64,000 nt of DNA from Styela clava (lineage: Eukaryota > Chordata > Ascidiacea > Stolidobranchia > Styelidae), in NCBI RefSeq assembly GCF_964204865.1, contig NC_135260.1, positions 8,122,001 to 8,186,000 of the forward strand, given 5' to 3'. This document shows, piece by piece, positions 2,762 through 46,357 of this stretch. Position numbers and translations under genes: made by a program. Numbering within the stretch: the stretch's first letter is position 1; every line of letters begins with the position of its first letter. A model generated the notes under the pieces. That model was given only the letters and a program-made list of their open reading frames with translations, did not search any database and was not told the origin of the DNA.

Positions 2762-2979
2762 TTATGTCTAAAATACGAACTGAGTCTATTTATTAAATAA
2801 ACCCAATCACGTTTATTAGAGATGTCACGGTAAATGATATATCTATTACTATGGCAAGCAAGCTTAGAAATAGTAGCGGTACGTGGTTGGCTTTTTGGTA
2901 TATTTTGGTCGAATAATTTTAGACTGTGGGTAGAAAGCTTAATAATTTCAAATCATATGAACAGGTTGATTATTTGGCG

Positions 2980-3185
2980 CTCTAGAAGTGTGTGTGTACC
3001 AATATGGAGGTAACTAATTTTGTCCGCCTACTTTACATCAAATTGTGTAAAGGGAATGAAACATATGGTATATTCACATGGCTAAAACAGACAGTCCGCG
3101 AACTCGTAATAGAACTAAAATAGAGAAAAAATCGAAACGAAATCATGGCCTAACTCCAATGTGGTACACACACTACGGGTGTACC
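2980..3185 (+). mobile_element. MITE family A, full-length copy
   Basis: This copy of about 206 bp begins CTCTAGAAGTGTGTGTG and ends with the complementary ACACACTACGGGTGTACC. The interior matches the copies at 1886, 7841, 17034, 27592 and 30986. There is no reading frame. Confidence 0.65.
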
Positions 3186-3673
3186 TAATATTTTATATAA
3201 TTATATCATAAAATAATAGATTTCTCTTGCTTATAAGGTTGTTTGTTAGTAATTAATTATTGATCAACTACAATTAACTGATCACAAGCAGCGTAACGTC
3301 CATTCCGTGGAAATACTTGATAGATACCGCAAGGTGTAACTGATGGTTATACGTCGTTGACTTCTTATTCGTGAAAACCTTGATATGATAATATAGTATA
3401 GGCTATTTTCATTAAATGTAAATGATATAATTTGAGGTAGTAATTTTAAACAATAGTATCAGCATTATCGAATGTTGGCAATTTTTTTTTATCACAATTA
3501 AAGATAAAAAGTCTCGTTGTAGAATTGTATCGATCCTAACATTGTGCTCAAATCACAGAATTTTGTCACATTTGGGCAACAAATAATATTAGAGAACTAG
3601 CAAACTAACATGACTGATAAGTCAATGCAAATAATACTTTAGACATACAAAAATTTTCAGTGGTTAAATAAAT

Positions 3674-6115: not shown

Positions 6116-7310
6116 TAAGTTTTGTCCTCTCCCTTGAATGGTGCGCTATTTATATCCCCATGATTTGAACACATCAGGATCGGGGTAGTTGATTTGTTCA
6201 CTCTAAAAAAAATTGTGAAAAAATTGTAGCGTTGTATGATACAAATTTAAATGCATTTGAAAGGTTAATCAATATTTCTTGCTGAACGTACAGTCAAGAA
6301 ACATTATTGTTCCATGAAAAAAGTATCCAGATCGTACAAACGGATTTCTTTTGGTTTAAGTGATGTTGCGCTATACTAAGTAAAATAAAAATATGAAATG
6401 AAAACAAATCTCACCCTTGGATTAACCCTGATTCCAAGACATGCATCCACATATTCGGCCCGTACTTTTGGAATTCTTTTGTTCAGACTGGCACGAACAT
6501 CACCGTAAACAGATCGATTAGGTATGATAGCTACAGTTTTTTTTTTTTACATATTTCCTTCGTGGCTGAGTATGTTAGGGTGTGAGAATAGGTAGCATAT
6601 GTCCAGTAGCATGCATCATTGCGACGTACTTCACGAAGTTCTGGCAAAAATATTCATGTTTTCTAAGTTTGTCGTGAAATAAACATATGTTTTAAAAACT
6701 ACACCATTAAACAAAAGCATTGTTGCTCAACGCAGTTATATATAAAATAACAATCTAATTGAAGTTAATACTCGAATTCGAATATAGCTTTCTGATTTAC
6801 TAGCTTCTACTAGAGTGGAAGTTGAATGGTATCGTCTCGCTTATATAATATACTATATCCTGATTCAATTAAATAAATGTCATAATGCCGATGAAGTAAT
6901 TTTCCCAGTGGCCGCAAACGACTAAAATAACACTCTGCAGAAAAACTCCATTGGTATTTGGCGAGAATATTTTGTTATCCATGCTGGTATAGAAGTCGAT
7001 ATTGTTGGTTGATGAAGAGACTTTTTCATTTATGAAATTGGAATAAAACAAACTCGATCGTTCACTAGAATTTTTGTATAAAAGATATATATCATCGTTG
7101 ATTACCAATATTTATTGTGAGAATGAATTGTGAAAACTCTAATGCAATAAAAGTTGCCGTCATAAAATTTATCTGTTCGAGCTGGACAATCTTTTGTTTT
7201 GTTGAAAAGAATAATTTCTTTCACTTCCTCTTCCATTGCTGTTGTCGCATTTTTAAACTGCTGTTTTAATATCTTTCCTCGATCCTTAAAACGATGTCAC
7301 ATTTCAATGC
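6116..7310 (-). pseudogene. Broken copy of the four-exon CTLD-like gene
   Basis: Read on the reverse strand, this matches exons 2, 3 and part of 4 of the intact gene at 19155-20980. The exon 2 copy (about 7150-7310) keeps its splice acceptor (TCTTCAG) but has CGA changed to TGA in the MRHRF motif. The exon 3 copy (about 6416-6650) has a 4-base loss in a run of 12 A, which shifts the frame after the second cysteine. The exon 4 copy has TAG after WGYK and is cut off at about 6120, where the LTR remnant begins. No exon 1 was found upstream. The intron segment at 6869-7108 is also shared with the intact gene (19886-20209). With at least three separate lesions it cannot encode the full protein. 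Confidence 0.8.
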
Positions 7311-7840
7311 GCCATTCCTTCATAACTGAAGAGAAAAATATCATTATGTATCACATATAATAACGATTCAAACTATTCTGCACCCAAACCTGCACCTTGA
7401 CTGATTTTTGACTCCCCATATGTAACATGTGACAAAAACATATAGTTGTACCTTACATTAAAGTGTATTTACTATTTGTTTTACTTAGTTTAGTAATGAC
7501 ACTCAAATTCAGAATTTTTTTCATTCGATGACAATACAAGAAAATACATAAAATACATTTAATAAGATTTATACACGTACATGAAATAATTGCCAGTGAA
7601 ATCAAGAAAAAAATTAATAAAATACCTTGATTACCTTGATGTTATGTCTGCTAACAAATTTTTCAATTTTAAGGTTGTTTACAATAACTCGAACTTCGTC
7701 ATGCAATGCATGCTTAAAACAGCGTATGGCTTTCCAGATGAACGCATGTTTCATTCGAGTCATGCACGTACAGCAAGCTTTATGTTATCTGTGAAAATAA
7801 TCTAAAACAATATTGTGTTTATTGTAAGATTGTTGATAGC

Positions 7841-8066
7841 CTCGTAGTATGTGAATCAAGATGACGGACACCGGAACGTACTATGTGTACCAAGTTAGGG
7901 TTAGAACATAATGTCTGGTACAAATACTACGGGCAAACACAAAACTGTAGTCCTCAAACTCGTAATAGAAATAAACAAGAAAAATTGGAATAAAATTATG
8001 GCCCAACCCTAACCTGGTGCTATGTTCCGCTGTCCGCCACCTTGGTTCACATACTATGGGAGCACC
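7841..8066 (+). mobile_element. MITE family A, full-length copy
   Basis: It begins CTCGTAGTATGTG and ends CACATACTATGGGAG, so the ends form an inverted repeat. The interior includes the shared CAAACTCGTAATAGA and AATAAAATTATGGCC blocks. It is non-coding. Confidence 0.65.
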
Positions 8067-8417
8067 AAATTGTTATCTATAGATTTAAATAATTGTTGGG
8101 TCTATATAACGACTTTTTCTCTATTATTTCAGATAATTTCCATCTTTTCAACTATTCTAGTAATGCAGCTGATGGTAAGTACCCTTTAAAGCGTACGTAG
8201 GAATATTAAACAAGACGTAACTTCAATCTAATAAATTAACCATGACTACAATCCCGCGTCTTTATACCTTGCAAAAGCTTGCTATAATTACTAGTCTAAC
8301 AAATTAACTATAAGCATTGAATGAAGACTTGACCTGATGTAATTCAAACCCCAATGTTAAAAAATCTTATTTCTTCTTGACATTATACACGCACGCATTG
8401 AAAGATTGAAGTCTCTT

Positions 8418-8585
8418 CTGCAGCTCGGTGAATGAATTTTCCCAAAATAATGTCACGGAGCAATCGTTATAGTTTACACGATTTTACATGATTCAACGAT
8501 ATTGGTGGCATTTATTACAATCAGATATTCACAAACATTTACAGAAAAAGCTTAATCTTCAGTGCCAGCGGAAATACCCTATGTT
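8418..8585 (+). repeat. Dispersed repeat B, copy 1
   Basis: About 170 bp containing GTCACGGAGCAAT, GGTGGCATTTATTACAATC and ACAAACATTTACAGAAAAA. It is clearly related to 18606-18755 and more weakly to 17570-17700, all in the same orientation. Its nature is unknown; no terminal repeats are visible. Confidence 0.55.
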
Positions 8586-9495
8586 GCAATTTTGCAGTGT
8601 ACAGTGCTTTTGTGCTATTAGGACTAATTGTGGAGCGTTCACACACAATAACAAAATAAATATTTATCATTACCTCGCTACAGAAGATAGACATATGTCA
8701 GAATTGCATTGAAAAAATATGGCTACAATAATAAAAAATTGGACAATTCAACCTCGACCAATGGCGGAAAGTAAAAACCAAGAAGGCGGCGATTCGAAAA
8801 CTTTTCTCTGAACCAGTTCGAATAATTTATGATTCAAATATTGAATTCGAATTTATTTATTCGAATATTCGATTTAAATTGCCCAACCCTACTCGTTTTC
8901 AAAAAGATGTTGTTTTGTTATAAAAGTTGTGCCGATGGAAAGGGCGAAACGGTGAAGGTAAAATAGCAACATTGGTGATCCAGAATTTGAGATACTGTAT
9001 CGAAAACATTAGTGGCTCAAGTCATAAAATCATAGATTTCAACCTGCTGTCAGTTCAACCTACCCAGTATAAAAGCATTTGCCCAGTGTGTTACAGAAAC
9101 AGTGATACGATATGTAAAAGCGGTAAAGCGCTATGTTAAAGTCGTCGACGGGTGATGATATTTTTACTCCGCCATGAAATATTATCTGTCTGTGAAATTT
9201 TAACGTGCCCTGATTTCTCATTCATTTATGTTCAGTTATTATATTCAACTTTTCGGAAAAATGAGCTACGTTTTATTAGTAGATGATACATAAAATACCG
9301 TTCAAGCAAATATTCAGGTTCAAAACCCCGAGGTTTGTAATGACAACTTCAGATACTTGGAAGTCAAAAGCGTCTAAAAATAAGGTCATACGGAGGTACA
9401 TCCAAGCGCGTGACGTCTCTCATTGACTGGTCCTATAAAACATTTTATCTGCGCAATACTACACATAAATAAGCTATTCTATAAATAGTCTGAAT

Positions 9496-10473
9496 CAGGG
9501 GTCTCAAACTCAATTTACTTGAGGGCCGCTGGGGCAGAGTCTGGATGAGTTCGGGCCGCATCGAGTTTTCCACAATAAAAGCTTAGCAACTCGTTTAAAT
9601 TGTATTCTTTGTGCACTGCAACTTCAACTGTGCAGATAAAACATGTCGGGATGCTCCTATGCTTAACAAAGAAATGTTGCATTTCCCAGTTTTTTGAAAT
9701 TGTCTGTGCTCATTACCAACCTTTCTGTTTACTGAAACTTCACTTCCAACGACACGTTTAGGGATGTGCGAAATTATAAAATTCCATCTTGTAATAACTG
9801 TTGCGCTGATGTTTCAATCAAGCATTTAGTCGATGGACAGTGATGTTTGGCCACATGGGAAACATGGTTACAATTTATCAAGATAAATCTAAACGTTAGT
9901 GATTGTGGCGTCAAAATCATAGAACACTGTTTTTAAATTATTTTATGCGGTCCCTCGATCGAATATCAGGTCTACAGATATGGTACTGGTAGGTTACTGC
10001 GCCGCATATTTCTTTCAGGGGATAGATGATAAAATATTTTGTTTTGCCCTACGTGAGAGTTTCCTTTTTTCAGTCACGAAACACTTACACTTTTTATATC
10101 TCCTCGTGGAACACCAAAAAATGAAAGGGTCAAATTGATAAAGAAAAACGGTGCAATGTAGCGGTTACTTTAGGCCGACGGGGACGCGATTTTAAATGCG
10201 CAGTTGGGCAACAACTTCATGATTCTCAGATCGCAATGACGACTAATTTAGATGTATTTTTGATTCCTATTCCACGCAACACTCGGGAGATGCTCGCGGA
10301 ACATTAGTGTTCCGAGGAACACAGTTTGGGAAACGCTGTTATATTAAAAGCATTATTCATGCTAACTGACTTGCGGGCCGCACTCACATTAAACTTTAAT
10401 TCCAAGGCGGGGGCCACAAACTATCATCCCGCGGGCCGCAATTGGCCCGCGGGCCGCGAGTTTGAGACCCCTG
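9496..10473. mobile_element. Complete 978-bp non-autonomous hAT element with 8-bp target duplication
   Basis: The terminal inverted repeats CAGGGGTCTCAAACTC (9496) and GAGTTTGAGACCCCTG (ending 10473) are perfect over 16 bp. They are flanked by identical 8-bp target duplications GTCTGAAT (9488-9495 and 10474-10481), the hAT signature. The subterminal regions are rich in GGGCCGC. No transposase frame survives, so it would need an enzyme supplied from elsewhere. The intact ends and target duplications suggest fairly recent movement. Confidence 0.92.
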
Positions 10474-10639
10474 GTCTGAATTTTGAAATTTTGATATCTG
10501 CTTTAAATTATAGTTATTTTTACATATTTAATCGGCTTCGAAATAGAAATACATATAACACAACAAATTCACAAATCCTTCGCCGAACCCATGGTACAGC
10601 CCCACCGAACCCAGGTTCAGAAACACTGATGTAAGCCGT

Positions 10640-11405
10640 TTTCTAGTCAAAATCACATCATATTCATGAACCGATTTTACACTCCAGCTACTTTTTGTGT
10701 AACGAAGATACCAGACTATGTGGCACAACAATGACTAACAGAAGACATTTTTCAAAAATTAATATAAAAGAGAAGAATGAAATTGAAAAAGGAGAATCAG
10801 ACGTTTTATACAATAGCAGTGTCGGTGCAATTGCACGGCAAGACAAAAAAACAATATATTTTATTACAACGGCATTTTAAATTTGCCGAACACGCAGATC
10901 CGAAGATATGAGCCAGCGCAACGGAAGACGGTTAAAATTACATGTCCAGTAGCAGTTAAAGCTCACAATTCGTTCATGGGAGGAACGAACAAAAATGGTC
11001 AAATGACATGTCTCCAAAAGTGCAGAAGGCACTACAAATGGACGAGGCGACTGGTTATGAAGGTTTTCGTGTGGGCGACCTACAACTCATACGTGCTAAT
11101 GAATTTTGTTGAGCCTCACAACATGAGAGTCTATTCACTTTCCACAATTTTCTCGAGCAATTATTTGAAGAGCTCGCTGGAGAAAGCAAAATGTTGACGC
11201 CAAAAAATGCAAGATTGTTCAACATCAGGAAGTATTGACTAGTATAAAAGTACTTCAACTAAATGTACGCCATGACGTGTATAAACCATGAAATGCCATC
11301 TCTAAGAACAGATGCGTGCGTCGTGTGCCGCAAAATTTACAAAATTGCGAAAAAAGTCAAGCCTGCCGCTAAAGACAAAGAGTCGCCCAAACAATGCAAG
11401 ACGAT
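10640..11405 (+). pseudogene. piggyBac-type transposase remnant
   Basis: Pieces in different frames match the C-terminal half of piggyBac (DDE_Tnp_1_7) transposases. At about 10695-10880 there is a GTTMTNRRHF segment followed by ESDVLYNSSVGAIARQDKK. At 10883-11197 comes the family's CP-V...N-MGG...MTC...RRHYKW region followed by the NSYVL block. At about 11285-11400 a Cys-containing tail (CVVCRKIYKI) matches the position of the C-terminal zinc-finger region. Stops and frame changes between the pieces, the lack of the N-terminal half, and no visible TTAA-flanked ends mark it as dead. The MGG motif is followed by TN instead of the usual VD. Confidence 0.7.
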
Positions 11406-12763
11406 ACTGCGATGAATACCCATGCATGGAGAATGAAACCAACAATCATTGGTACAATTAGCATAACAAAGTGCAATATCGGGTTTAGAATGTGTAGCAG
11501 TCTCTTCTCCACATAATAATCGTGCGTGACGAGACGAAGCGTTACGTCGATGAAAACGTCAGGTTGGCGTAGCGATGCAGTCAAAGCTACAGAATTTATA
11601 TATTTGGCTATGAAATTTGAATACATCATCATACAATCGTTCCGAAAGTCCCTATAGAAAGACATTCAAATACTCCAGATATATTGTTGATTGCATATGT
11701 GTCTATTCAAAAAAGAATTCGAATATTTTTGATATTTAATATTTGTTGTCATATAACAATTTTATACGCACTTTGATTTGCCAAATTTACTAAAATATCG
11801 TATAATAGAGCCTAAATATCTACAGTGTAAATATCCCCAATAACTAGCTTTCATGCAATTTAAAATTTATTTAAATACTCATTATGGTTCTTGAAATATG
11901 AGATTATAAATTTGATTGCTCCTGGCACGAAAAGCAAGCCGAAAACCGGCTTGACGGGTTCAAGCGGTTTAGATAAGCGCTTCTGTTCGTAAGCAAATTA
12001 TATATTCGCCGTCGGCCGTGATAATGTTGTTATTTGTGGAATGGCAGTGAAATACTAACAGTGTAATCTTACAGAATATGAACTGAAATACTGAGATAAT
12101 CAAATGAGCTTTCAAAAATTGATTTTCTACATATAAAAAAAAAAACAAATACAATAGTAACGCTGAAAACCTTTGTAGAAAATGAGGTATTTTGATAATA
12201 TTGTTGAAAATTGGGATTGCAGCTATGTATAGTCAGGATTCTAAAAATCCATTCTCGGTTGAATTTTGTTTCATGTGATCTAAATAGATTTTTAGCAATA
12301 AAATCTTTATATTTATTTTATGCATTTATTAAGCAGTCATATTTACTATAAATCATATTTTCACTGAAAAAATGGAAAATTTCACAAAATGGTAGTTATT
12401 CTGTTTTCTTTAAAAACACTTTCCACTGGGAATGGTTCAGAATTTCTAAATATCCCCATCATCATTTCGAAATACATCATTAGTGACTTTAATATTGCGG
12501 CGCAATGAATATGAAACTAATTAATATTAATAAAAACGCTTTAATTGTTAGATTGGAGTATTGTTTCTAAACACAAAGCATTCAACTTTGCCTCTGTGGC
12601 CACACGATGTGGCTATTTGTTCATATGACATTTGTTGTACAGGGCATTTTAAGTTACTTTTCTAATATTCGAAATAAGAGACGATAGTGAAGACACAATA
12701 TGATAATAAAACAAGTTATTTTTCCTCTGCAGATTTGTACAGTGTAAGCTCTTGAACCGTAAA
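11406..12763. other. Upstream region of lectin 1; outer end of left duplication arm
   Basis: From about 11970 the sequence matches, in reverse complement, the region ending near 23733. It probably holds the promoter and an untranslated first exon of the lectin at 12764: a strong acceptor (TTTCCTCTGCAG) ends at 12732, and the region around 12170-12250 is well conserved between the arms. The reverse frame at 11369-11665 faintly resembles transposase, but I cannot support it. Confidence 0.45.
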
Positions 12764-13279
12764 ATGAAAATTCTCGAGATCATCACTGCCGTTGTATTAC
12801 TTACTGGTGTAGATGCAAATCAATCATGCCCAGGCCATGCTTTTTCCCGTTTGGACGAAGGTTGGGCTGTGGCAGGGAACCAATACCGTTACCTTGTTAG
12901 CAGGAAAGGAATGACTTGGAGTGATGCCGATGAGTTATGTAAATCCATGGGAGCCTCGTTGGCTACAGTAGGAATCAGAGATGAAGTTATCTTCGAATAT
13001 TTGCACAAGAACTTCTTGCCACAAGGTGAAAGCATGTGGGTTGGACTCACAGACATCGAAAATGAAGGGTCTTGGAAGTGGACTGATGGTGTCACTGCTA
13101 TATCAAGCAATACTCCGTGGGGGGATGGTCAGCCAGATGATTATAAGCCAGGCCAAGACTGTGCGTGCATGAGAAAGACCGTGTCATCGACTAATTATAG
13201 ATTGCAGCGTCTAGATGACTGCGTGTGTTGGTCGACCTATCGAGCCTTGTGTGAGCTTCCACCAAACCGATTTGTTTAA
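12764..13279 (+). CDS. Secreted C-type lectin, QPD type (lectin 1)
   Basis: 171 residues: a signal peptide (about 1-18, MKILEIITAVVLLTGVDA) and then a single C-type lectin domain filling the rest. Recognisable landmarks are YRYLVS...W.DA.ELC (41-59), WVGL (92-95), WKWTDG (104-109), QPD at 123-125, and the final Cys in ALCEL. In this family QPD predicts galactose-type sugar preference where calcium is bound. The usual WND calcium motif reads LDD (150-152), so binding may be altered. Two CxC pairs (CAC, CVC) are unusual. I chose the ATG at 12764; the acceptor TTTCCTCTGCAG just upstream implies a 5' untranslated exon. The coding part is a single exon. An AATAAA signal lies at 13436. Lectin 2 (22864-23385, reverse) is its inverted duplicate. 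Confidence 0.88.
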   Translation: MKILEIITAVVLLTGVDANQSCPGHAFSRLDEGWAVAGNQYRYLVSRKGMTWSDADELCKSMGASLATVGIRDEVIFEYLHKNFLPQGESMWVGLTDIENEGSWKWTDGVTAISSNTPWGDGQPDDYKPGQDCACMRKTVSSTNYRLQRLDDCVCWSTYRALCELPPNRFV

Positions 13280-13435
13280 AAACAAACGTTTATAGAAGGC
13301 TACTATCGCCTAATTTTTTGCATTTGGAAAACTATTTTCTCAATGAAATGGGCACTCATAATTATATCAAAATGATTGTTTACTAATTTTGTGTACAATG
13401 CTTGATTTATATTACAACATTGAAGTCGCAAATTG

Positions 13436-13441
13436 AATAAA
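13436..13441 (+). terminator. Polyadenylation signal of lectin 1
   Basis: AATAAA lies 157 bases past the stop codon. A corresponding signal is present on the reverse strand beyond lectin 2 (22678-22688). Confidence 0.55.
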
Positions 13442-14459
13442 ATTCCAGTGCATGTTATTCCCGTTAATTTGCAATGGGCACGGTCAAAGATAATAAATAA
13501 AATGTGAAAAATGTCATGTAAGAAAAGTAGCAAAGCAGTTGCGATGAACGTATGAAGTATCATGTTAACGTATTAGCATAACGTTAAAAATGAACCATTC
13601 CTAGTTGAGACCAGAAATGCTAGTTTGCAAGACTTCCGGAATACATACATAACTAAAGTATCGTATAAAACACTTTTGACATAAAAGTATTCCTGACTGA
13701 TTGGTACGTTGGCGCGAACGTCTGGGACACGTTGAATGTTTCGTAAAAGGTTCGTGCTTGTAGGGTTTTAGACGCAAGTCGACGTTGGCGGGTTTCCAGG
13801 TTTTCATGGTTCAAGTTAAAAAAAAAAAATTAAGTTTACTAAATGGTCCTAACAATCTACAAAGGAAGGCTTGAGTATGGTAAATGTTTTGTTGCAAATA
13901 TTTAATTTCCTCGAGAGGCCGGTCGGACTCTGGGAGGACAAAGTTTCAATGTGTTTTTGAACACGAAGTGGACATACGGAGCATTTTGCAACACAGTTGT
14001 TTTTGTTTCAGTTTTTGGGTTGTTATTGTGAAATTTTACTAGACTTATCCACCACCAAACACTGCGCTTAACTCGCAAATCCCGACTTGAGGGGCTGCCC
14101 TACTAAACAAAGTCATTAGAAATGAAATTTACCTCCAAATTCATGAACCTCATGATGAAATGTCTTTTCGTTTTGGAAGTCTGATCGTTGCCTTAAACCA
14201 TAAACTGGTGTTTGACCACTGGTTTTAGTAACCGTGAATACTATGTTGTATGTAGTTTCTCATTATAATTCTAGTCCCCAATAATACACGCAAATATCTG
14301 CCCGAAAAAAACTAATTATTCGCTTAAACTTTCATGATGTATGTATTATATACTAAAATCGACAAATTAAGGGTGTTTGTGTCATTAATTTTGAATGCTT
14401 TAAAAAAAAATTGAATTGAAAGTATCATCCTGACTGTTATTTGATTAAAGTTTTATTTA
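13442..14459. other. Non-coding part of left duplication arm
   Basis: No gene is seen. The sequence is mirrored at about 21620-22680. The short open frame at 13601-13807 on the reverse strand is not preserved as a frame in the mirror copy. Confidence 0.5.
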
Positions 14460-16225
14460 GGTCTTCATTATCACATTTTTAATCTGACACTCAACACCGT
14501 CAGTATATGACGTATAGGTTTCTTGTTTCTCATTCCGTAAAAACGTGGAGACGAAAACAGGTAGATGTAAGTTTTTTCTTCCCTTCCGAGGGCGGTGTTT
14601 TTTTGTATGCCCATCTGAACATTTCCGGATCCGGATATGTAATTTGGCCACTCTGGAATCAAATGATATTTTTAGTAATTTTTTGAATATTTATAGCTAG
14701 AACGTATATCTAATCGGATTTCCCTAGTCTCATGGAGTTGAGCCAGTAGTTAGTTGGTTATTCATCTTAGGTTTTGCACAAGAGAACAATGCTCAAATAC
14801 ATGGACACGTATGTCACAAAAATGAGTGATTTTTGTTGAATCAGAACTACATTTTCACTTTAAAATGAAAATATTTGGACTTTTATTCTGTCCACAAATA
14901 TGAAAGTACTTTACAAAAATATAACAAAATCACAATCCCGTACGGCTGCCCACCAATAGGTAGCGTTCAATTACTTGAAAGCAAAGCAATAACATATTTT
15001 GAAACATTAGAATTTTTTTAAAGATTCGGTTCCAACCAACAAATTTATCGAGAATTTTTCACAATATCCAAAAAATATTTCAAAAACTCCATTCCAATTT
15101 TAATAATAAAATTAGGTATATATAGTGAATTATTGGTATTCTTACTCTTAGATCGACTCTCATTCCAAGCCATCCATCTATATATCCTGCCCCTACGCTC
15201 GGTATTCTTTTGTTTAGATTGGCACAAACATCATCGTAAACACATCGATCAGGTATGATAGCTACAGTAGAATTCTTGCTTTTACATATTTCCTCCGCTG
15301 CCTGATATGTAAGGCTGTGATAACGGGTTGAATATGTCCAATAACAAGCATCATCCCGACGCACTTCACAGAGTTTTGAAGATAAAGTAATCATTGTCAA
15401 AATAAAATTCTCACCAAGATATATATATCAGGTAAATTTAATCATTTTACAGCATCATCTAAGGCTACGTAAGATGTATCGATGAGGTCAAGGGTATGTG
15501 ATGAACTACTGAAAATTGTTTGTTATGAGTTATATTATACGCGTCGATTTTTGTGAGCAATCAGGGCATAGGATTCATCTATGTAGATATCACAAGTTAG
15601 GAATAGACGGTTCACCCATTCTACCAAAAGTAAATATATTAGGCGGTAAATAACGAAGTGATTTCCATTCCTTTCGTACCAGTGTGACCCGTACGCATGC
15701 ATTTGGGGAATAGCGGCAGCCCTTCTGGGAAGAGCGTTTTAGTTAGTGAGTTAGTTGACTAGTTTGTTCAATTTAATGTATATATAACAACAACTACAAT
15801 TTGTTTATGAGTATGAGGGGCATCATTATCAGAAACTCGCCCCGGGCAGCAAAAAAGATTAGCATGCCCCTGCTTGCACGTATATGTGCTGTCATTCATG
15901 GGAGTTGTTCGTCAGGCGTGAATCATCGGCTAGGTCTTAATTTGTATCAGATCAGCAAGAAGACGAATACATAATTTGATTGTGAAATAGTGGAACTTCT
16001 GAATCTCAGGATGCTTCACAATGATAGGACGAATAAATACTATTTTATCAAACTTTACCGTCAGGAAATTTATCTTTTCTAACTGGACAATCTTTCGTTT
16101 TGTTAAAAAGAACAACCTCTTTCAATTTCTCTTCTATTGCTGTTGTCCCATTTTCAAACTGCTCTTTTAATATTTTTCTTCGATCCTCAAATCGATGTCG
16201 CATTTCAATGCGCCATTCCTTCATA
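14460..16225 (-). pseudogene. Broken copy of the four-exon CTLD-like gene (left arm)
   Basis: On the reverse strand, the exon 2 copy (16059-16225) and exon 3 copy (15146-15375, exactly 230 nt as in the intact gene) still read open: LCEVRRDDACYWTY and AAEEICKSKNSTVAII are clear. However, the acceptor before exon 2 has become TTTTTG instead of TTTCAG, and the acceptor before exon 3 has become TTCAA instead of CCAG. The exon 4 copy (14460-14652) keeps its acceptor but needs two frame changes to follow the intact protein (WPNYI.., then FSSPRFYGMRN, then TSYTDGVECQI). No exon 1 was found up to 17 kb. It therefore appears dead, although exon 3 could be a donor for gene conversion. Confidence 0.8.
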
Positions 16226-17033
16226 ACAAAAATAAAGTTTAAATATATCTAAATCTGAACATATCTAAATATATAAAATCTAAATATATCATGACAAATA
16301 TGGTATTCAGTCTCCAATTGTTCGACCTGATGACTATCTTATATAAAAATATTTGTGTTTAGTTTGTAGAACGAGATTCTGCGAAGATGTTGCTATAAAT
16401 TCTTTAATTCATTTTGTTCAGCAACTCTGTGATTGAGACCCGCGTTGCCACGCAATATCATGTATATTGATACTATTTGTTCGTTATTTTTTTTTTTTAT
16501 GATGAATGAGTTCACATTTCTCCTCGGTGGCGTATAGAGATAAGACTGACAACTGAATATTTTTGTATAACTTTTTCCATATATAAATTCGAAGATATTA
16601 GAAAAGCTTCTATTCTGTATTTGTATGGCCTAGTTGTAATATTGCACAAAAATTACTATAAAATTACCATACTATCATGTATTTGTATGGCCGCAGTCGG
16701 AGAAAACCCAAAAGTTATCAAGTGATTATGTATTACGTATATATTTTAAGTATTCTACGTATTACGTATTTAATTTTGTCAATGTCCTCGTCACAAATTT
16801 TTTGATCTGTTTTTTTTTTTTTTTTTTGGATAACTCAGAAATACGACAATGACTTAGGATATCCTAGCTTATTCCAGCCTAATACGAGTCAACAACAAGA
16901 TGAACTAAATTAAAAAAAAAGATTATTGACACTATTACGGGTTGATACCATTTTTTCCCTATAAGCCGCGGTGACTCAAAGCTGGTTGTCAAGCAGCGAC
17001 ATCCAAGGTTCAAAAGATCGAAAAAAATTTGCG

Positions 17034-17217
17034 CTCTAGAAGTATGTGGGGTAACTAATTTTGTTCGCCTGTTTTACATCGAGTTGTGTAAAGGGACTGA
17101 AACCTATTCACTTGGCTAATACAGACAGTCCCCGAACTCGTAATAGAACTGACATAAAGAAAATCGGAATGAAATTATGGCCTAACCATAACCTGGTACT
17201 TATACTACGGGAGTACT
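17034..17217 (+). mobile_element. MITE family A copy
   Basis: It begins CTCTAGAAGTATGTGG and ends TATACTACGGGAG. The interior has ACATCGAGTTGTGTAAAGG and CCCCGAACTCGTAATAGA as in the other long copies. Confidence 0.65.
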
Positions 17218-18605
17218 AGAAATTTAGCTTCGGAAGTGCTTTTATTGTCAGTGAAAACCGTATAGTTTTGGCAAATCACCCAACGAACATAACAGGAGAT
17301 AATTATTTAACAATATGTTAAATAGTTACCTGACCAAGAGATTTACAGGCTATCTAACCTCACAAAACCGAAGAGCTATTTGAAGATTACACAATAACGC
17401 TGTATCTGAAAGCATATGTGGCGCAATAAAATGCGTTCGTATTGTGTTGGGCATTAGATTTAGATTATACTCACAGCGATAATAGCTGCAAATCGTCGAT
17501 TCTACATTCAAACGCTTGCAAACTATATAGTGCTCTTGCTATCACGTTTATCTGAAAAATTACCTCGCGGTAGAGTCCCGGAGACGAATAATAGTTTCCA
17601 ATTTCAAATTATTATTTCATATTGGCAGCATTTGATGCAATTTGATATGAAATAATGCGGCACAGATAGCTTAAGGTCTTTTTATGGAAATAACCCTATT
17701 CCGGGGGCAATTATATCAGACACCGACAAAGTGTACCTTCTTTTAACATTACAATACAATCCAAGTGGAAAGACAAATAAAATTATTATACATACTATTT
17801 TAGTTCAATGAACATTCGTTTATTGGAACATCAATTTATACAGATTCATAATAAATGTAAAAGTACCTCAATAGGAAAATGAGTAGACGGAAATTGCTGT
17901 ACCTGATTCAACAAAGTTATAAAGTTGCAAATAGCTGCAAATGTACCTTGCTGGTTTTGATAGTTTCCTGTGTTATGTAATTAGTATTTTACTGTAAAAT
18001 ATGACTTTTTTTCATCAAATCTCATGCAATCAATATTATACAAAAATTTCCCAAAAGCGAACATCTTATATTTTTTATTCTCATTTATGTGCAAACAATA
18101 AATTTGAAACTGTATTTTGCTGTATATACTTTTGGTGCTTTGTTACCCTCAAAATGCTCGATTGGTGAAATCGGAAACTATCAAAATCTCCGCGATCTTG
18201 CAATTATCGAAAACACTCAAAGGACCTTTTATATTAGGAACACGTACAGTTTAGCATGATACTACTTACGTCTATTCATCTTCATGCTTGTTTAGTAAAA
18301 CAGTTTAAAAATTAAATATATTATTTTAATAAAATTCGAAAATTACCAAACATTAAGACTTCTGCTCCAACTTCCAAATTTCTGACATTTTTGAGATATA
18401 ATTTTGGAGATAGAGTTGATATGATTGTAAAAATAAATAGAATATTATAGGTACACAAATAATTATAAAAGCGTAGAATGGTTACTACACGTTGGTTTGT
18501 TTGTAAGCTCAACTGATACAAACAAGGACACGGGTGTAAAAGCATCGTGCATTTTGAAAAATAAAACCATAAAGCGGTAATTAAGTAATTTGTTAAAATA
18601 TACTA

Positions 18606-18755
18606 AAGTCAGCTCGGTTCCCAAAATAGGGTCACGGAACAATTGCTATAGTTTCCGATTTCAAGTAATTTTCCTATATTGGCGGCAATTATTGCAATCT
18701 GATATTCACAAAAATTTACAGAAAAAATTTTATCTGATGGAAATACCCTCAAGCA
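18606..18755 (+). repeat. Dispersed repeat B, copies 2 and 3
   Basis: It contains GGGTCACGGAACAATTGC and TTATTGCAATCTGATATTC, matching 8418-8585. A weaker copy with TTTCATATTGGCAGCATTTG lies at 17570-17700. All three run in the same direction, although the neighbouring lectin copies do not, so this repeat spread independently of the lectin duplication. Confidence 0.5.
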
Positions 18756-19154
18756 CCTTAAGCGTTTCAGTGCGTGAACAACGATTGGAATAAGAAATAG
18801 GGTTTTGTAACATTGGAGATACATCACATCTGATCACGTCTTTATTAAATGCTTAAATAAGTTGCTAGATTGATATTAACTTCATTGCAGCCTAGATACA
18901 AGGGACTATGGTCATAGCAGATTCATTAGAATCAAGATATGCAGCTTTCATATCGAGTATGTCTACATTACTACAATAGTTGAAAGAATGAAAAACAAGA
19001 GAATAGAAAAAGATCTCCAACGCTTATCCAACAATATTACAAATTTAGGCGACAAAAAAAAATAAATTAACGCGTAGTATAGTTTCAGATTATTGTTGCA
19101 GATTTAGATTAGAGATTGCTATACCTTCACAATAATTCTGATCTAAGTTAAAAT

Positions 19155-20980
19155 ATGTGTTCATCCGTTAAATCTTACGTTGTTCCGCTCCTACCTATAA
19201 TGACGTTGCTGCTATTACGAAGCGTTGACTGTGAACAGCGTATTTGCTTCGAAGTGCCAGACTCGACATTGAACGACGAAGTTCGAGTTTCTGTGAACTA
19301 TGGCAAAATTGATAAAATTGTTAGCAGACATATTGATCAAGGTATTTTATTGGTTTGTTTATAGACTTTACTGATAACTGTTTTCGGTAATATATGAAGA
19401 TGCATATTTTATATTTATTTTTTGAATAGACAAATTTTTTGAATGTTCACATTTTTGAGTTGAACTTCAATTGCTGTTACTGGACTTAGTAAATCAAATA
19501 GTAAATAAACTCGTTAAAATCAAGTAATAGAATTTTTGTGTGGTGTACAAAGGTATGTTATTGCGGCATAAACTCAAGCAAGATATCATTCGTCGTATCA
19601 AATTTGGGTTCAAAACTAGTTTGGATCGTTTTTCTTTGCAATACATAATGACATTTTTCTTTTCAGTTATGAGGGAATGGCGCGTTGAAATGCGACATCG
19701 ATTTGAGGATCGAGGAAAAATATTAAAACAGCAGTTTAAAAATGCAACAACAGCAATGAAAGAGAAATTGGAAGAAGTTATTCTTTTCAACAAAACAAAA
19801 GACTGTCCAGTTCGAACAGATAAATTTTCTGGCGGTAACTTTTTTATTACATTAGAGTTTTTACAATTCATTTTCATAGTAAATAATGGTAATCAAAGAT
19901 GATACATATCTTTTATACAAAAATTTCAGTGAACGATCGAGTTGGTTTCATTCTAATTTCGTAAATGAAAAAGTCTCTTCATCAATCAAAATATCGACTT
20001 CTATACCAGCATGGATAACAAAATATTCTCGCCAAATACCAAAATTAGTTTTTCTGAAGTGTTATTTTAGTCGTTTAGGGCCTCTGGGAAAATTACTTCT
20101 TCGACATTATGACATATCTTCAATTGAATCAGGGTCGTCAAGCTCATATATATACCAAACAATTCAACTTCTACTCTCGAATGTTAGTAATTCTGAAAGC
20201 TGTATTTAAATTCAATAAGTATTAACTTCAATAAGTTTATTAATTTGACTATAACTCCATATTTTGGCTATATTTTACTGCGTTGAGCAACAATGCTTTT
20301 GTTTTATGATGTACTTTTTAAAACATCTTTTTATTTCACGATGAACTAGAAAATGTTAATGTTTTTCCAGAACTTTGTGAAGTACGTCGCGATGATGCAT
20401 GTTACTGGACATATGCTACCTATTCTCACACCCTAACATACTCAGCAGCGGTGGAAATATGTAAAAAGAAAAATTCTACTGTAGCTATCATACCTGACCG
20501 ATCTGTTTACGATGATGTTCGTGCCAGTCTGAACAAAAGAATACCGAAAGTACGTGCAGGATATGTTGATGCATGGCTTGGAATCAGGGTTGATCCAAGG
20601 GTGAGAATATTTGTTTTCATTTCATATATTCATTTTAATTAGTAGACTATAGAGCAACATCGGTAAAACCAACAGAAATCCGTTTGTACGATCTGGCTAC
20701 ATTTTTCATAGAACAATAATGTTTCTTGACTGTACGTTCAGCTAGAAATATTCATTGACATTTCAAATGCATTCTTATCATATGACGTACGAACAATTAA
20801 TTTTTTTAGAGTGGACAAATCACCTACCCCGATCCTGATGTGTTCCATTCATGGGGATATAACGCACCATTCAAGGGAGAGAAAAGCACTCAAGTGTTTC
20901 TGTTTTCGTCGCCCGGATTTTATGGAATGAGAAACAATGCCCCAACAAGTTACCAAAGCGGGGTTGTTTGCCAAATATAA
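19155..20980 (+). CDS. Secreted CTLD-like protein, four exons, intact
   Basis: Exons 19155-19341, 19667-19834, 20371-20600 and 20810-20980 join in phases 1, 1, 0 with standard GT/AG sites to give 251 residues. Exon 1 encodes a signal peptide (about 1-26, MTLLLLRSVDC end). Exon 2 encodes a charged helix likely to be coiled coil (MREWRVEMRHRFEDRGK..). Exons 3-4 carry a diverged C-type lectin-like fold: C129-YW, AAVEIC149, STVAIIPD, DAWLGIRV, FYGMRN and a final VC249QI. There is no EPN/QPD or WND calcium motif, so sugar binding is doubtful; ligand and role are unknown. It is the only intact member of a family with two pseudogene copies in the window (6116-7310, 14460-16225) and an extra last exon (21430-21612). 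AATAAA at 21611 may serve as its polyadenylation signal. Confidence 0.75.
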
Positions 20981-21429
20981 CTACAAATCTTGGAAATGTA
21001 TTTGATACAATGCATTGTATACAATTCCCATAGACTCCAATACCATTAGTATTATTCAATTGAACGGAACTGTGTTTAGAGTGAATACGTTTATTTACAT
21101 ATTATTAGACCCTTTGAATTTTGTGATTCAAATTTTCGAATGTACAAACATGATTTGACAAGTGAAAAAATTGTTTTTATTTTGTTATATTTCTTTAGTA
21201 TCTTGGTGAAGAAGGATTTGAACGTTGACTATATCTAAAAATCGTGTATCTTTTAAAGTGAACGAATTAAACTATAATTCTAATTCAACAAAAACTACTC
21301 ATGTTTGTGATATATGTGTCCATGTATACGAGCATTGTGCAGAAACTTACATGGATAATTACTGACTAAACTTCATGAAACTAGTAACCTAAAACTAGAT
21401 AAATATTTGAAAGGACTAAAAATATCATT

Positions 21430-21612
21430 TGATTCCGGAGTGACCAAATTTTATATCCGGACATGTTCAGACCATGAGCATCCAAAAAAAAAACGCCCTC
21501 GGATAGGGAGGGAAAAAGTCAGGTCTACCTGTTTTGTTTTCCACGATTTTACGGAATGAGAAACAAGAAACCTACGTCATATACTAACGAGGTTGTGTGC
21601 TAAATGTGATAA
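21430..21612 (+). pseudogene. Orphan second copy of the CTLD-like last exon
   Basis: It starts after an acceptor-like ATTCCGG and matches exon 4 (TTTTACGGAATGAGAAACAA, then CCTACGTCATATACTAACG). A run of ten A and further indels break the frame, and the final Gln codon after the last Cys is replaced by a stop (GTGTGCTAA). It corresponds to 14460-14652 in the left arm. Its place 450 bp past the intact last exon suggests a tandem exon duplication that preceded the inversion. Confidence 0.65.
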
Positions 21613-22863
21613 TAAAAAGTTATATAAAACTTATACTTTCATCAAAGAACAGTCAGAGTGATAATTTCAAATTCAAAATAATTTCAAAGCATTTAATACA
21701 AATTATATTATCGTAATTTGGCCATTTCTATATATAATACATCCATTATAAAAGTTCAAGAAATAACTATCTTTATCAGGGCAGATTTTAGCGTGTAAAA
21801 TTGAGGACGGGTAAGACCCGAATTATGATGAGAAACCAGCACTTACAACATAGATTTTACGGTTTCTGAACCCAGTCCTGGAGAGTGGTCAAACAACAGT
21901 TTCTGGTTTAAGGCAACGATCAGACTGCCAAAACGAAAATATATTTTATTTGGTAAATTTAGAGGTACATTGCATTTCTAATGACTTTGTTCGTTAGGGC
22001 AGCCACACAAGTTCTGATTTGCGAATCAAGCGCAGTGTTTGGTGGTGGATAAGTCTACAAAAAGTTCACAATAACAACCCGGAAACTGGAACAAAAACAA
22101 TAGTGTGGCAACTGGCAACATGCTCCGTTGGTCCACTTGAGTTCAAAAACATATTGGAACCTTTGCCCTCCCAGGTTTCCGACTCTCGAGTCCGCCCGGC
22201 TTTACGAGGAAGTTGAATATTTGCAACAAAAAATTCGTCATATTCAAGCCCTTCTTTGTAGATTGTTGAGACCATTTAGTAAACCTAACTTTTTGATTTT
22301 AACTTTGTTTATCACCATGAAATCCTGCCAACGTCGACTGGCGTCCTAAACTCTACAGTCACGAGCCTTCCATGAAACATTTTACGCGTGAACGTTATCA
22401 ACGTGTTCTAGACGTTTACGACCAATGTACCAATCAGTCAGGAATACTTTTATGTCAAAATATTTTTACATGATACATTAGTTTTGTATACCGGAGGCAT
22501 TTAAGGTCTCAACTGGGAATGGTTCAGTTCTAACGTAAGGCTGGCACGTTAACATGATACTTTTATACTTTCATCGCAACTGCTTTGTGACTTTGCTTTT
22601 GTGGCATTTTTACATATTTCATTGAATGTCTTTGACCGTACCCATTGCAAATTAACGGGAATAACATGCACGGAAATTTTATTTTATTAAATTTGCAACT
22701 TGCAACTAACAAATTTGCAACAATGTTGTAGTATAAATCAAGCATTGTATACAAAATCAGCAAACAATCATTTTGATATAATTATGAGTGCCCATTTCAT
22801 TGAGAAAATAGTTTTCCAAATACAAAAAATTAGGCGATAGTAGCCTTCTATAAACGTTTGTTT
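21613..22863. other. Non-coding part of right duplication arm
   Basis: No gene is seen. The sequence mirrors 13280-14460. The 60-75 codon frames at 22019-22349 are not conserved as frames in the mirror copy. Confidence 0.5.
22678..22688 (-). terminator. Polyadenylation signals of lectin 2
   Basis: Two overlapping TTTATT words (AATAAA on the reverse strand) lie about 180 bases past the lectin 2 stop, matching the position of the signal downstream of lectin 1. Confidence 0.5.
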
Positions 22864-23385
22864 TTAAATAAATCGGTTTGGTGGAAGCTCACACAAGGCT
22901 CGATAGGTCGACCAACACACGCAGTCATCTAGACGCTGCCATCCATGATTTGACGCTGACACGGTCTTTCTCATGCACGCACAATCTTGGCCTGGCTTAT
23001 AATCATCTGGCTGACCATCCCCCCACGGAGTGTTGCTTGATGTAGCAGTGACACCATCAGTCCACTCCCACGTTCCTTCATCTCTGACGTCGGTGAGTCC
23101 AACCCACATGCTTTCACCTTGTGGCAAGAAGTTCTTGTGCAAATATTCGAAGATAACTTCATCTCTGATTCCTACTGTAGCCAACGTTGCTCCCTTGGAT
23201 TTACATAACTCATCGGCATCGGTCCAAGACATTCCCTCCCGGCTTACAAGGTAACGGTATTGGTTCCCTGCCACAGCCCAGCCTTCTTCCAAGCGAGAAA
23301 AGGCATGGCCAAGACCTGGGCATGATCGATTTGCATCTACACCAGTAAATAAAACAACGGCAGTGATGATCTCGAGAATTTTCAT
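22864..23385 (-). CDS. Secreted C-type lectin, QPD type (lectin 2)
   Basis: 173 residues, nearly identical in plan to lectin 1: signal peptide MKILEIITAVVLFTGVDA, then one C-type lectin domain with WVGLTD, WEWTDG, GDGQPDD, the two CxC pairs (CACM, CVCW) and a final CELPPN. It differs by a two-residue insertion after SCPG (LG), by GWQRLDD where lectin 1 has YRLQRLDD, and by scattered conservative changes; the frame is fully open, so both copies look functional. I place the start at the ATG at 23385; the frame runs 45 codons further upstream, but that part spans the intron acceptor (TTTTTTCTCGGCAG) conserved with lectin 1 and is untranslated. In CTLDs QPD predicts a galactose-type preference; LDD in place of WND leaves calcium binding open. 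Confidence 0.87.
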   Translation of the reverse strand: MKILEIITAVVLFTGVDANRSCPGLGHAFSRLEEGWAVAGNQYRYLVSREGMSWTDADELCKSKGATLATVGIRDEVIFEYLHKNFLPQGESMWVGLTDVRDEGTWEWTDGVTATSSNTPWGDGQPDDYKPGQDCACMRKTVSASNHGWQRLDDCVCWSTYRALCELPPNRFI

Positions 23386-24550
23386 TTTACAGTTTAAGGG
23401 TTTACACTGTACAAATCTGCCGAGAAAAAAGAAACAAAAATTAATCGGAGATAGATTTTTAGAATCCTGACTATACATAGGTGCTATCCCAATTTTCAAA
23501 AATATTATCAAAAACCTCATTTGCTAAAAAGGTTTTTGGCGTTGCTGGTTTGTTTGTTATTTGAAATATATAGAATAGTTATTTTTGAAGATTCATTAAT
23601 TATATCATTATTTCAGTTCATATTCTGTAAGATTACACTGTTACTATTTCACTGCCTTCCTACGAATGACAACATTTTCGCAGCCTACCGGCGAATATAT
23701 AAACTGCTTTTTACCAAAAGCGCTTATCATTTAATGTATATTAATACAAAATAATCCTATCCATCAACATTGTAACCCCATTTTCAGAAAAAATAGGTTA
23801 ACCGTGCATATTTGGAGTGAACAAACAGATTACAAATGATAAATTTGAAAGCTCGAAATAGGTTTCTAAAAACAATATGATTATTTGAGATCTGACCTTT
23901 TTCACAAACCCATCCATCAACATTGTAATTCCTTTTGAGATTAAAAGATTCCCAGTGTATAATATTCACACTCAAAAAATTAACATCCATTGAAATTAGT
24001 AGCTGGAAATCCGTTCCCACAAACGATATGTCTAAATCATATCCTTTTCCACCATAAATTCGGGCAGAAAATATATCTATCAAAATTATAATCCCGTGTA
24101 TCGGAATGAAAGATTTTCAGTGCATCGTCTGCGGTAATAAACAAATTAGGTATGATTGAATTAGTAGATCGGAATTTATTTTCAAAAATGCATATAATTA
24201 GGATAAAGTTTTTTTTTATTAAAGACAGATATACAACAACTCTAAATGCTTCAAATAAATCAAACCGTAATCCTAAATTTCATTAAATAAAATGCATTTT
24301 AAAAAGAGATTTCATATTTTGACATTAAATTTTTGTTTTTTAATAGATTTTGATTGGGATATATGATACAAAACGTCTGTTAATAGTAAATTACACGAAT
24401 CGTTGTTGTTTAATACGCTATCATTGATCATTGGTGTTTTGGCTAATTAATGAGAGAATATTAACTTGACCTGTATACAGAAGAGTGTTGTTTCATAGTT
24501 ACCGCATATTGTGGACTCTGGTCGATTTGTGCCACCGATGTTTAATAATC

Positions 24551-26456: not shown

Positions 26457-29400
26457 ATGCTGATTCTTCCCGACGTTACTTGGATAATACTAAACAATTG
26501 GAGTATAATTTTGTGTCTTCTAACGAGCACTGTATATTCGTTATACACGTTCATCAAAAGACCAAGAAATTTCCCACCTGGTCCAAGAGGAATTCCTATT
26601 TTAGGAGTTGCACCGTTCGTAGGGAGTAGACCAGAAGTTACTTTTGCGGTGAGTATTGGCAGTGCTATCATGTAATTGCATGAGAATGTTTAGTTCGTCG
26701 TATTAAACGGACTCCCATTTTAAATATAATACCAGTGCATTTTTTCGAAGCCCTGATGTCTTACCAAACCGATTAAATAACGTTTGTCATCATTAATAGA
26801 TTTTGTCGGCTGTATACTCGATCACAATGAGTGGACTCTTGAACAAACTTGCGGATTTCAAATTAAATTTAAAATCCGATTTCGCCTTACAACTATTTGA
26901 AACAATATATGTAATCTTTTATTTCGTATTTTAGAATTAATCACAATGCTTTTATAATTCCACAGTAGTTATGATAGGGCGCAAATTCAGGTGCATAATT
27001 TCATTAATTAAATAACTTAATTAACGGATCAACGTTTTAACAGTCGGAATCCCATAAAAATACATTTTATTATTGATAATAAAATTACAAAATACTTTTT
27101 TGAAAGTTTTATATTTGATGCAATAATATTAGAAATTTGCATTTTGTAGAAATGGAGCGAAACATACGGAGATATCATTGGTTTTAAACTGGGAAGCGAT
27201 TACACAGTTGTTTTGAACAGTTACGATGCGATACAAGAAGCTCTAGTTAAAAATTCCTCCGTGTTCAATAACAGACCAGATAATTTTATTATAACAGAAG
27301 TTTTGCATAAAAAAGGTAAAATCTATATATCATTTTTTTGTGCTATGTACTTGTTTATACAGACTTCAATCAGTCAATGAATTGCTAATTTTAATCGAAA
27401 TTTGAGTGGATTTGTTGTTGTTCTAAAGAAGATTTACAACTGAATACTTGGAATTTAACGTTGCCTTTTGACTAATCTTCGATAAATCGGTTATGCACTG
27501 TGGTCATTACAAAGCCACACGTGTGATATATACGTTCAACTAGTTTATTTTGAGTGTCTAGTTCCCAACTAACATTAAATAAACGTTCTGTGTATTCACT
27601 TGGCTAACACAGACAGTCCTCGAACTCGTAGTAGAGCTAAAACAAGAAAAATCGGAATAAAATTATGGCCTTACCTGGTACACATACTACAGGGGTACCT
27701 TATTACGTGTACATGAATAGGTACTGTATTGATAATAAGGACCTGAAGAATAGTAATACTGCAGCAATTATAAATAAGATTTTCTTCGCCAAAATGGCGG
27801 AATCCTTCTTTGGGGAGAACTTTTCCAATCCGTCGGTGTAGCCTGTATATTCAAATATTTTGTTTGCATTTGAGCATTATTCTGTTTCTGAGGTTTCGAG
27901 AACATATTTTCGCTGTCTTCCAGGCTACGTTTAAAAAGTTATTGCGAGAGTCTGGGCAAAGATATACGACCACATAACTATTGCTTGAGGTTTGTTGTCT
28001 GTTTAATCTCGTGATAATAGAAGCTCAGGGCTGGAAACTACTTTACCAATTGCGTATATGTATTACAGTATTAGCCTACGTATTATCACATCACTCACTT
28101 TGGTATTGTAAATGAAATCAATCATAATTTTGTTCCAAGGAATAACGATGAATGATTATACACCTGATTACATCGTCGAAAGAAAATTTGCACAAACATC
28201 TCTTAGCAAACTTGGATTCGGGAAATCAGCGATTGAAAACTCCATTTTGGTAAGACAATATTTGAGAAGCAAAATAATGTTTCATTGTAACATGTGTTAG
28301 CTCGAATACGAATCTTTTTTTAATTAATAATAAAACAAGTTAGACAGTATGGTGTTTTCGGTCGCGAAAGCTTGGTGGTTTTGGTTAATCTTTATGATTT
28401 CATGGAATTGCTACAATATATAGATGTCCAAATGATATACTGAATAATTTTCGATTCACTTCGGTATGCGATCTCAGCGGTTGTGTAATCTTAGTGATTT
28501 TAGTATTAACCTAACCCTAACCCAACGATGATAGAGTAATGGTTGAAGCTGAATTCTATAAGGATGTCTTCATGGAATTAAGATTGAGATCACGTTAAGC
28601 AAGTGAGCTCACTCACCAATATGTTTTATAAATCTGGATTCGTATACCAAAGTACACGGTTTCGTACACCTAATTTTATTCCATCGATGAAGGGGCCCGT
28701 TTTTTACTCTGATTTATTATACACCCCGTAGCAATAGCTCGGACTAACAAAGATGCCCACAAAAAGCTTATCGTTTTTAATTTTATTATTTTTTATTCAG
28801 TTTGAAAAATACGTCATTTGTAATTTCAGGACGAAGCAAAACGGCTTATGAAATTATTTGGAAACAATGACGTTGAACTGAACGATTATATAAAAGTAAT
28901 CTTTTTCTTTTTGTATTTTTTATTATTTTTTTTCAGGTAAAAGGTATTCATTCATCCTAATTTATTTATCATTTCACAGAAGTAATCAATGCAGATAAAT
29001 AATTGCAGTAACTTGCTGATCATAATGTATAACTCAATATTGCAACCAGTGCTGATAAGTGCACTTGCTTAGTCGGTATACGCACGTTACTATATATCAG
29101 GGATGGCGAACCACTGCGTTTTATTCGTGACCCGCCAAGGCACGAATAAGTTTAAAAAAATGCTAACCTATAAACATTGATGAAACCGGCCTTAAATGAA
29201 TCTAACAATAACTAAAATATTATAATGTACCGTCAGGGCTGCGATCGCTAATATTCAAATTAATTTCTGGACAGGTATGGTAATTATCAAAACCCCTAAT
29301 CTCGTACGCGTTAATCAGCTATTGACTCTGACATCGTCTATGACATAACAATGCAATTGATACGTTCATTTCTCGCAACGTCTTGTCTCTTTTGGAAATG

Positions 29401-45935: not shown

Positions 45936-46357
45936 TACACCGACCGTAGTTTGCCATCCCTATTTCGCCATCTCTCATATTTCGTCAACTCCGTTATATG
46001 ATTTTTATGCTACCACTAATACGGTTACAATCTACAATATACGCGCATCTGTAAAGTCAAAGGTTGACACGACAAAATCTATTTCGACTTCGAGTCTTCA
46101 ATAGCTTTTATATATAGCTTTTCTGGATCATGCACGGTGCGTTCTTCTGGTATGTTCCCGGGATTTCTTCCTAAACGAGAGAAAAGTATATGAACGCGTA
46201 GATAGCGTGATGCGTCTCATACATACCAAATAATTCGAATCTCACGCAAGGCAATAACTAACGACTTGTCCGTTAAGAACTACTCTTGCAATATTATTAT
46301 TACACGATAAACTACAGATTGAAGGGAAGTAGCGAATAGACAGAAAGCAAAGTATTT

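Follow-up and report, generated by a model that had tools for sequence, protein, structure and literature searches.

We analysed a 64,000-nucleotide stretch of Styela clava DNA (the window; C14:8122001-8186000, 34.3% GC, 0 N) that carries a cluster of genes with C-type lectin-like domains (CTLDs): a pair of single-exon lectins in opposite orientation, LecL and LecR, and several copies of a four-exon gene, among them CtlL and CtlR. The preliminary description of this DNA had read the cluster as one large palindrome with a preserved and a decaying arm. We consider it likely that the locus was shaped by several small duplications, that is by ordinary gene-family turnover, and that the lectin segment was inverted after CtlL and CtlR had split. 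The reading that best fits CtlL and CtlR is that of older paralogues, and not of the preserved and the decaying copy of one palindrome, because their introns have no clear homology and because a CtlL-type orphan exon 4 lies beside CtlR's own. The analysis rests on the assembly sequence of one genome. The genome searched comprised 376.6 Mb in 379 contigs, of which three have lengths of 23.5, 24.3 and 31.3 Mb, and loci outside the window are named by contig (C2, C3, C4, C6, C8, C9, C10, C13, C14, C19), C19 being the highest contig number among the hits.

Extent and divergence of the inverted duplication

Self-comparison of the window gave a main inverted match between 12716-14855 and 23433-21269 (2245 columns, 79.6% identical with gaps counted, E 0), adjoined by an outer match of 11972-12272 with 23728-23431. 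Two short inner matches, 15137-15398 with 20609-20349 and 16055-16236 with 19838-19656, were exons 3 and 2 of the four-exon gene and ended near the exon edges. In a refined alignment, continuous homology was restricted to about 2.9 kb, save for a left-only stretch of 446 bp. The features that follow from this alignment are:

11972-14871, plus strand: left arm, aligned with 23728-21245, with LecL and its flanks, and with exon 4 plus some of intron 3 from the relic CtlL
21245-23728, minus strand: right arm, aligned with the left arm
12273-12718, plus strand: left-only stretch of 446 bp immediately upstream of LecL, absent from the right arm
21136-21245, no strand: right junction

The two inverted arms of about 4.2 kb described previously were thus partly real. 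Inverted matches do occur throughout 11972-16236 and 23728-19656, and the CTLD genes, which are of two kinds, lie there in inverted order, but aligning the matches shows the 4.2-kb palindrome to be a composite with exon-only inner matches. The true arms hold just the last exon of CtlL, and the spacer between them is about 6.4 kb and not 3.4 kb. The outer flanks beyond the arms had no homology to each other in the window comparison.

Over 2370 ungapped columns the arms were 85.6% identical. Lectin coding columns reached 92.8% (n = 516), and non-coding columns 83.5% (n = 1854), where near-identity would be expected of a palindrome maintained by conversion. The longest identical run was 94 bp. 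Since the non-coding DNA has diverged to this level and the arms lie 6.4 kb apart, hairpin formation is improbable at the present divergence.

Sequence up to 21135 was homologous to the 3' flank of a related gene copy on C10, and sequence from 21245 onwards to the left arm. Because the CtlR 3' flank matches C10 as far as 21135 and arm homology starts at 21245, sequence comparison puts the right-hand breakpoint of the duplication somewhere from 21136 to 21245; the left-hand one falls within CtlL intron 3. The left-only stretch is an indel, perhaps located in an intron of the 5' untranslated region (UTR). A mobile element was considered for it and rejected, as no second copy was listed for the query 8380-17100; this negative is weak, with 40 of 3352 candidates scored and an output crowded by repeats.

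Four-exon genes and their introns

The copies of the four-exon gene in the window are:

19155-20980, plus strand: CtlR, intact, 251 aa, with exons 19155-19341, 19667-19834, 20371-20600 and 20810-20980 predicted by splice rules
14480-16227, minus strand: CtlL, a relic with exons 2, 3 and 4 recognisable and the frame broken in exon 4
6127-8378, minus strand: third copy (the 6.1-kb copy), decayed, comprising 6127-7708 with introns and an upstream piece at 8295-8378, nearest to CtlR
21440-21603, plus strand: decayed orphan exon 4 in the right arm, of CtlL type and situated about 460 bp past CtlR exon 4

CtlR matched Pfam Lectin_C weakly and under the threshold (17 bits where the cut-off is 22.6, E 0.01), and its best PDB sequence match was a CTLD (CLEC9A, E 0.15). 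No exon 1 of CtlL was recognisable in a search up to 17100, and the acceptor AG is missing before its exons 2 and 3. The 6.1-kb copy matched CtlR in the self-comparison (6127-7708 with 20881-19267, 1662 columns, 79.5%); its exon 2 contains a stop, its exon 3 is frameshifted, and its exons 1 and 4 are truncated. Of the two arm copies CtlR alone reads through, in agreement with the earlier statement that this gene is intact only on the right, but the third copy at 6127-8378 had been missed. Elsewhere in the genome an intact copy occurs on C10 (locus L039, 9.9 kb). It shares 202 of 251 residues with CtlR, at a synonymous divergence (dS) of 0.264 and a non-synonymous divergence (dN) of 0.104 over all exons (dN/dS 0.39). 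A further relic lies on C8.

The introns gave the first line of evidence. Although exons 2 and 3 of CtlL and CtlR are 89% and 86% identical, the three CtlR introns aligned to CtlL with scores of 30, 31 and 34, against 29, 30 and 30 for the best of 20 shuffles, so that no clear homology was found. Against the 6.1-kb copy the same introns scored 73, 571 and 233 (80, 88 and 91% identical in the aligning parts), and against C10 95, 118 and 42 (78, 76 and 82%). Synonymous sites of exons 2 and 3 gave a dS of 0.16 for CtlR and the 6.1-kb copy, 0.312 for CtlR and CtlL, 0.317 for CtlR and C10, 0.374 for CtlL and the 6.1-kb copy, and 0.447 for CtlL and C10. Synonymous differences between CtlL and CtlR (23/90) were compared with those between the lectins (16/117, P 0.03) and between CtlR and the 6.1-kb copy (13/89, P 0.09); the higher CtlL-CtlR values agree with the intron result, though weakly.

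The orphan exon 4 provided the second line of evidence. It matched CtlL exon 4 at 135 of 156 positions (87%), the C10 locus at 75 of 98, and CtlR exon 4 at 76.6% over 64 positions. The possibility that it and CtlR exon 4 are alternative exons of one gene was set aside, because the orphan contains two TGA and one TAA stops and because the C10 locus, when compared with the window's first 26 kb, had exon-4 matches at a single place only.

Several observations weigh against great age of the CtlL/CtlR split. The 23/90 differences are not clearly above those at lectin sites outside the low-divergence patch described below (13/70), and the dS values are based on some 90-117 synonymous sites. CtlR and C10 are as diverged as CtlR and CtlL, yet CtlR and C10 introns align in part; synonymous sites alone therefore do not make CtlL the oldest branch, and it is the introns, more than dS, that would support an age difference between the paralogues. 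The CtlL-CtlR intron scores slightly exceed the shuffled maxima, and queries with CtlL introns, one of which scored 37, had no shuffle control. Exons that are 86-89% identical beside introns that cannot be aligned could also mean that in CtlL the introns were replaced or the exons converted one by one.

In the genome search, matches to exon 3 of the four-exon gene formed a large cluster of putative CTLDs on C9 at about 21.2-23.6 Mb, at approximately 25-39% identity; of the 131 matches listed, about half were on C9.

The lectin pair

The two lectins of the arms are:

12764-13279, plus strand: LecL, QPD C-type lectin of 171 aa in one coding exon, from its reading frame and a Pfam Lectin_C match (56.5 bits, E 5.3e-15)
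22864-23385, minus strand: LecR, QPD C-type lectin of 173 aa in one coding exon, from its reading frame and a Pfam Lectin_C match (58.1 bits, E 1.6e-15)

The frame is open in both, which bears out the intact single-exon lectin previously ascribed to each arm. The start of LecL resembles a signal peptide by eye. A 5' non-coding exon is likely in both genes because a splice-acceptor-like site precedes each ATG by 31 bp. Both proteins contain QPD and have LDD at the WND position; we take QPD/EPN and WND to be sugar-site motifs. A predicted model of LecR, built with a 10-row alignment in which some rows were partial, had a mean predicted local distance difference test score (pLDDT) of 73, with a mean of 58 for residues 141-150. 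The modelled fold was that of a CTLD, and the top Foldseek matches included Mincle, MGL and ASGPR. The proteins of the locus may be secreted glycan binders.

The two proteins have the same residue at 151 of 171 aligned positions, with a dS of 0.151 and a dN of 0.055 (Nei-Gojobori, 117 synonymous sites). Both lectins are kept by purifying selection, and selection accounts for most of their likeness, because dN/dS is about 0.36 and silent divergence outside the low-divergence patch (dS 0.21, 13/70) is like that of the flanks. The earlier proposal that gene conversion keeps the lectins alike is for the same reason not needed to explain their overall likeness.

Among the genome matches listed, the next best after the pair was a sequence on C4 that is 47% identical and contains a stop; a lectin copy on C2 is a pseudogene. 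Many of the 143 lectin matches listed span the second half of the domain only, which would fit multi-exon genes. Three single-exon frames elsewhere combine collagen-like and C-type lectin parts, a collectin-like architecture without introns: L045 1492-2247 (minus strand) and L046 1492-2343 (minus strand) on C13, and L055 1498-2211 (minus strand) on C19. L045 matched Pfam Collagen and Lectin_C, the Collagen match of L055 was just under the cut-off, and L046 was read by eye and alignment. A piece of about 390 bp that lies upstream of the C10 four-exon copy (L039 2794-3189) is homologous to the lectin 3' flank at 13557-13925 and 22195-22565; no lectin match was listed near that place on C10.

A low-divergence patch with a divergent loop

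Within the lectin pair, differences are unevenly distributed, and two features were delimited:

13084-13378, plus strand: low-divergence patch of 295 bp, comprising the second half of the LecL coding sequence and the first 100 bp or so of the 3' UTR, with its right counterpart at about 23059-22765
13187-13204, plus strand: island of 18 bp inside the patch, encoding the beta3-beta4 loop (LecR residues 144-149) just before LDD

The patch was found by scanning fourfold sites of unchanged codons together with non-coding sites. Only 1 of 130 scanned sites differs in it, against 17.4% elsewhere, and none of 5000 permutations with a repeated scan reached that value. Of the 11 differences that the patch does contain, six fall in 13187-13203 (75 of 100000 permutations were as clustered), and those of the island amount to five amino-acid changes and one silent change. 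In the LecR model the island codons sit between strands 134-139 and 152-156, directly before LDD. The beta3-beta4 loop of the lectins exceeds in length that of seven among eight relatives in the alignment, and equals that of L053. Just upstream of LDD, LecR and the C2 relic both have a Trp, and LecL has a Leu. LecL is probably the changed copy at this position because the relic has LecR's Trp, as judged by eye.

The patch could be a past gene-conversion tract between the lectins in which the loop stayed unconverted or was held different by selection. This would be compatible with the history of small duplications, and we regard it as a real possibility, though somewhat less probable than its contrary. 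The scarcity of differences at the scanned silent sites and the concentration of differences in a single 18-bp loop speak for it, and the length of 295 bp fits published mean tract lengths of 200-300 bp, most of them from yeast (PMC3924818). However, about 100 bp of 3' UTR carry the signal (1 of 99 positions differs, P 4e-7), and a constrained 3' UTR would look the same. Three differences within the patch, two of them at twofold sites and the third in a changed codon, are not part of the scanned set; when all synonymous sites of the coding part are counted there are 3 differences in 46.9 sites, and coding sites alone (3/47 inside against 13/70 outside) gave P 0.10. The same source reports that efficient conversion needs about 200 bp of identity, shorter lengths still being possible, and that the rate falls strongly near 80% identity (PMC3924818); the longest identical run is now 94 bp. 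The conversion claimed for the lectins is accordingly reduced to one 295-bp patch that would fit a short past event. Such an event is possible, and continuing conversion in the arms is unlikely.

A more specific version is that a short conversion after divergence equalised the second half of the domain and the 3' UTR while selection kept or drove the five-residue loop difference, giving a shared scaffold with two binding loops. We think this unlikely. Should the conversion reading prove true, the two lectins would offer a tidy small-scale example of selection holding a binding loop different within a homogenised gene.

Probable history of the locus and alternatives

The observed extents of homology, intron relationships, divergences and lesions are consistent with the following order of events. 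A four-exon CTLD gene would first have been duplicated; of its copies, CtlL has the introns that diverge most. Next, some 2.9 kb of DNA that included the lectin along with exon 4 of CtlL would have been copied in inverted orientation to a place just past the 3' end of CtlR, from which LecR and the orphan exon 4 would derive. CtlR would already have been a separate paralogue when the lectin segment was copied, and it and the 6.1-kb copy may have split at a divergence similar to that of the lectins. The lectins would have been retained by purifying selection while CtlL, the orphan exon, the 6.1-kb copy and the C8 copy decayed, possibly because CtlR and the intact C10 copy remained. We infer the left side to be the source because exon 4 has its natural context there; this direction and the timing are drawn from one genome. 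As in birth-and-death evolution with inverted duplication, the locus contains paralogues of different age, adjacent intact and pseudogene members, and a breakpoint inside a gene.

The main alternative is a single palindrome with arms of about 4.2 kb containing both genes, in which one four-exon copy decayed and had its introns replaced and conversion kept the lectins alike. Exons 2, 3 and 4 do mirror each other in order and orientation, a low-divergence patch exists in the lectin, and the CtlL-CtlR dS does not clearly exceed that of the lectin sites outside the patch. A single event does not readily account for CtlL and CtlR introns without clear homology next to non-coding arm DNA that is 83.5% identical, nor for a second exon 4, of CtlL type, beside CtlR. 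Moreover, CtlR is closest to the 6.1-kb copy, and outside the patch the lectins differ at silent sites about as much as the flanks do. On the strength of the introns and the orphan exon we rejected one 4.2-kb palindrome, which now seems quite improbable, and with it the picture of one arm preserved and one decaying: the four-exon pair lacks clear intron homology, the breakpoint falls in CtlL intron 3, and the orphan exon is on the right. An assembly artefact, with two alleles or haplotigs joined in inverted order, has to be weighed as well, as the order of the segments is known here from the assembly alone. Against it stand the 16.5% non-coding divergence and the 446-bp indel, outer flanks without homology, the absence of N from the window, the position of both places on one contig of at least 21.6 Mb, and the lack of a further lectin copy at that identity among the matches listed; we consider an artefact very improbable indeed.

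The history of several small duplications carries a practical lesson. When a gene family decays, matches confined to exons can pass for the long arms of a palindrome, and intron comparison together with an orphan exon separates the duplication events.

Surroundings of the locus

One further element borders the left arm:

10629-11958, plus strand: decayed element ending just before the left arm, with four relatives at 80-82% on C3, C6, C8 and C14

It had a match to Pfam DDE_Tnp_1_7 below the cut-off (E 0.0011, 18.8 bits; cut-off 22.4), and is presumably piggyBac-like. A high-copy dispersed repeat occupies 9494-10475; its copies are spread over many contigs, and most are 86-93% identical to it. 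Another dispersed repeat of about 110-260 bp occurs at 1891-2067, 2976-3200, 17001-17224, 27590-27703 and 30968-31228, and partly at 7949-8021; it had no Rfam or tRNA match. Scans of the window with Rfam (gathering scores) and ARAGORN gave no match.

Farther to the right lie direct duplications (46256-46952 with 55235-55918, 85%; 42187-42455 with 51374-51625, 73%) and a 243-bp head-to-tail repeat (52225-52467 with 52468-52710, 99% identical). Pfam p450 matches (cytochrome P450) were found at 32364-32837 and 40377-40706; the two stretches share 72% identity over 191 bp. A RING finger frame (Pfam zf-C3HC4_3) occupies 58854-59306, and the frames adjoining it recall a putative inhibitor-of-apoptosis gene.

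Comparison with known systems

Among the papers listed on inverted duplication, intronless lectins and conversion, no system was closer than the following. The long inverted repeats of the C. elegans HSP16 and F44E5.4/F44E5.5 loci are described as having arms that are 99.7-100% identical and spacers of 126 and 414 bp, and conversion is proposed to maintain the likeness of the gene pairs (PMC1803023). As in those loci, genes and intergenic DNA of the Styela cluster are inverted and duplicated within one locus; in contrast, the non-coding DNA is here 83.5% identical, the arms are 6.4 kb apart, and conversion is suggested for at most one 295-bp patch.

The lectins themselves are like invertebrate single-domain QPD C-type lectins, for example those of a published review, in having one CTLD with QPD and, by eye, a signal-peptide-like start (PMC12842671). 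LecL and LecR, known here from sequence, have one coding exon and LDD in place of WND after an extended beta3-beta4 loop. If the conversion reading of the patch holds, they would also resemble the ruminant CEACAM1 paralogue, of an immune gene family, in that a differing part lies within otherwise alike paralogues (PMC7042247). There, escape from concerted evolution is reported for a multigene family (PMC7042247), whereas the present case would comprise one pair of lectins and one 18-bp island in one genome.

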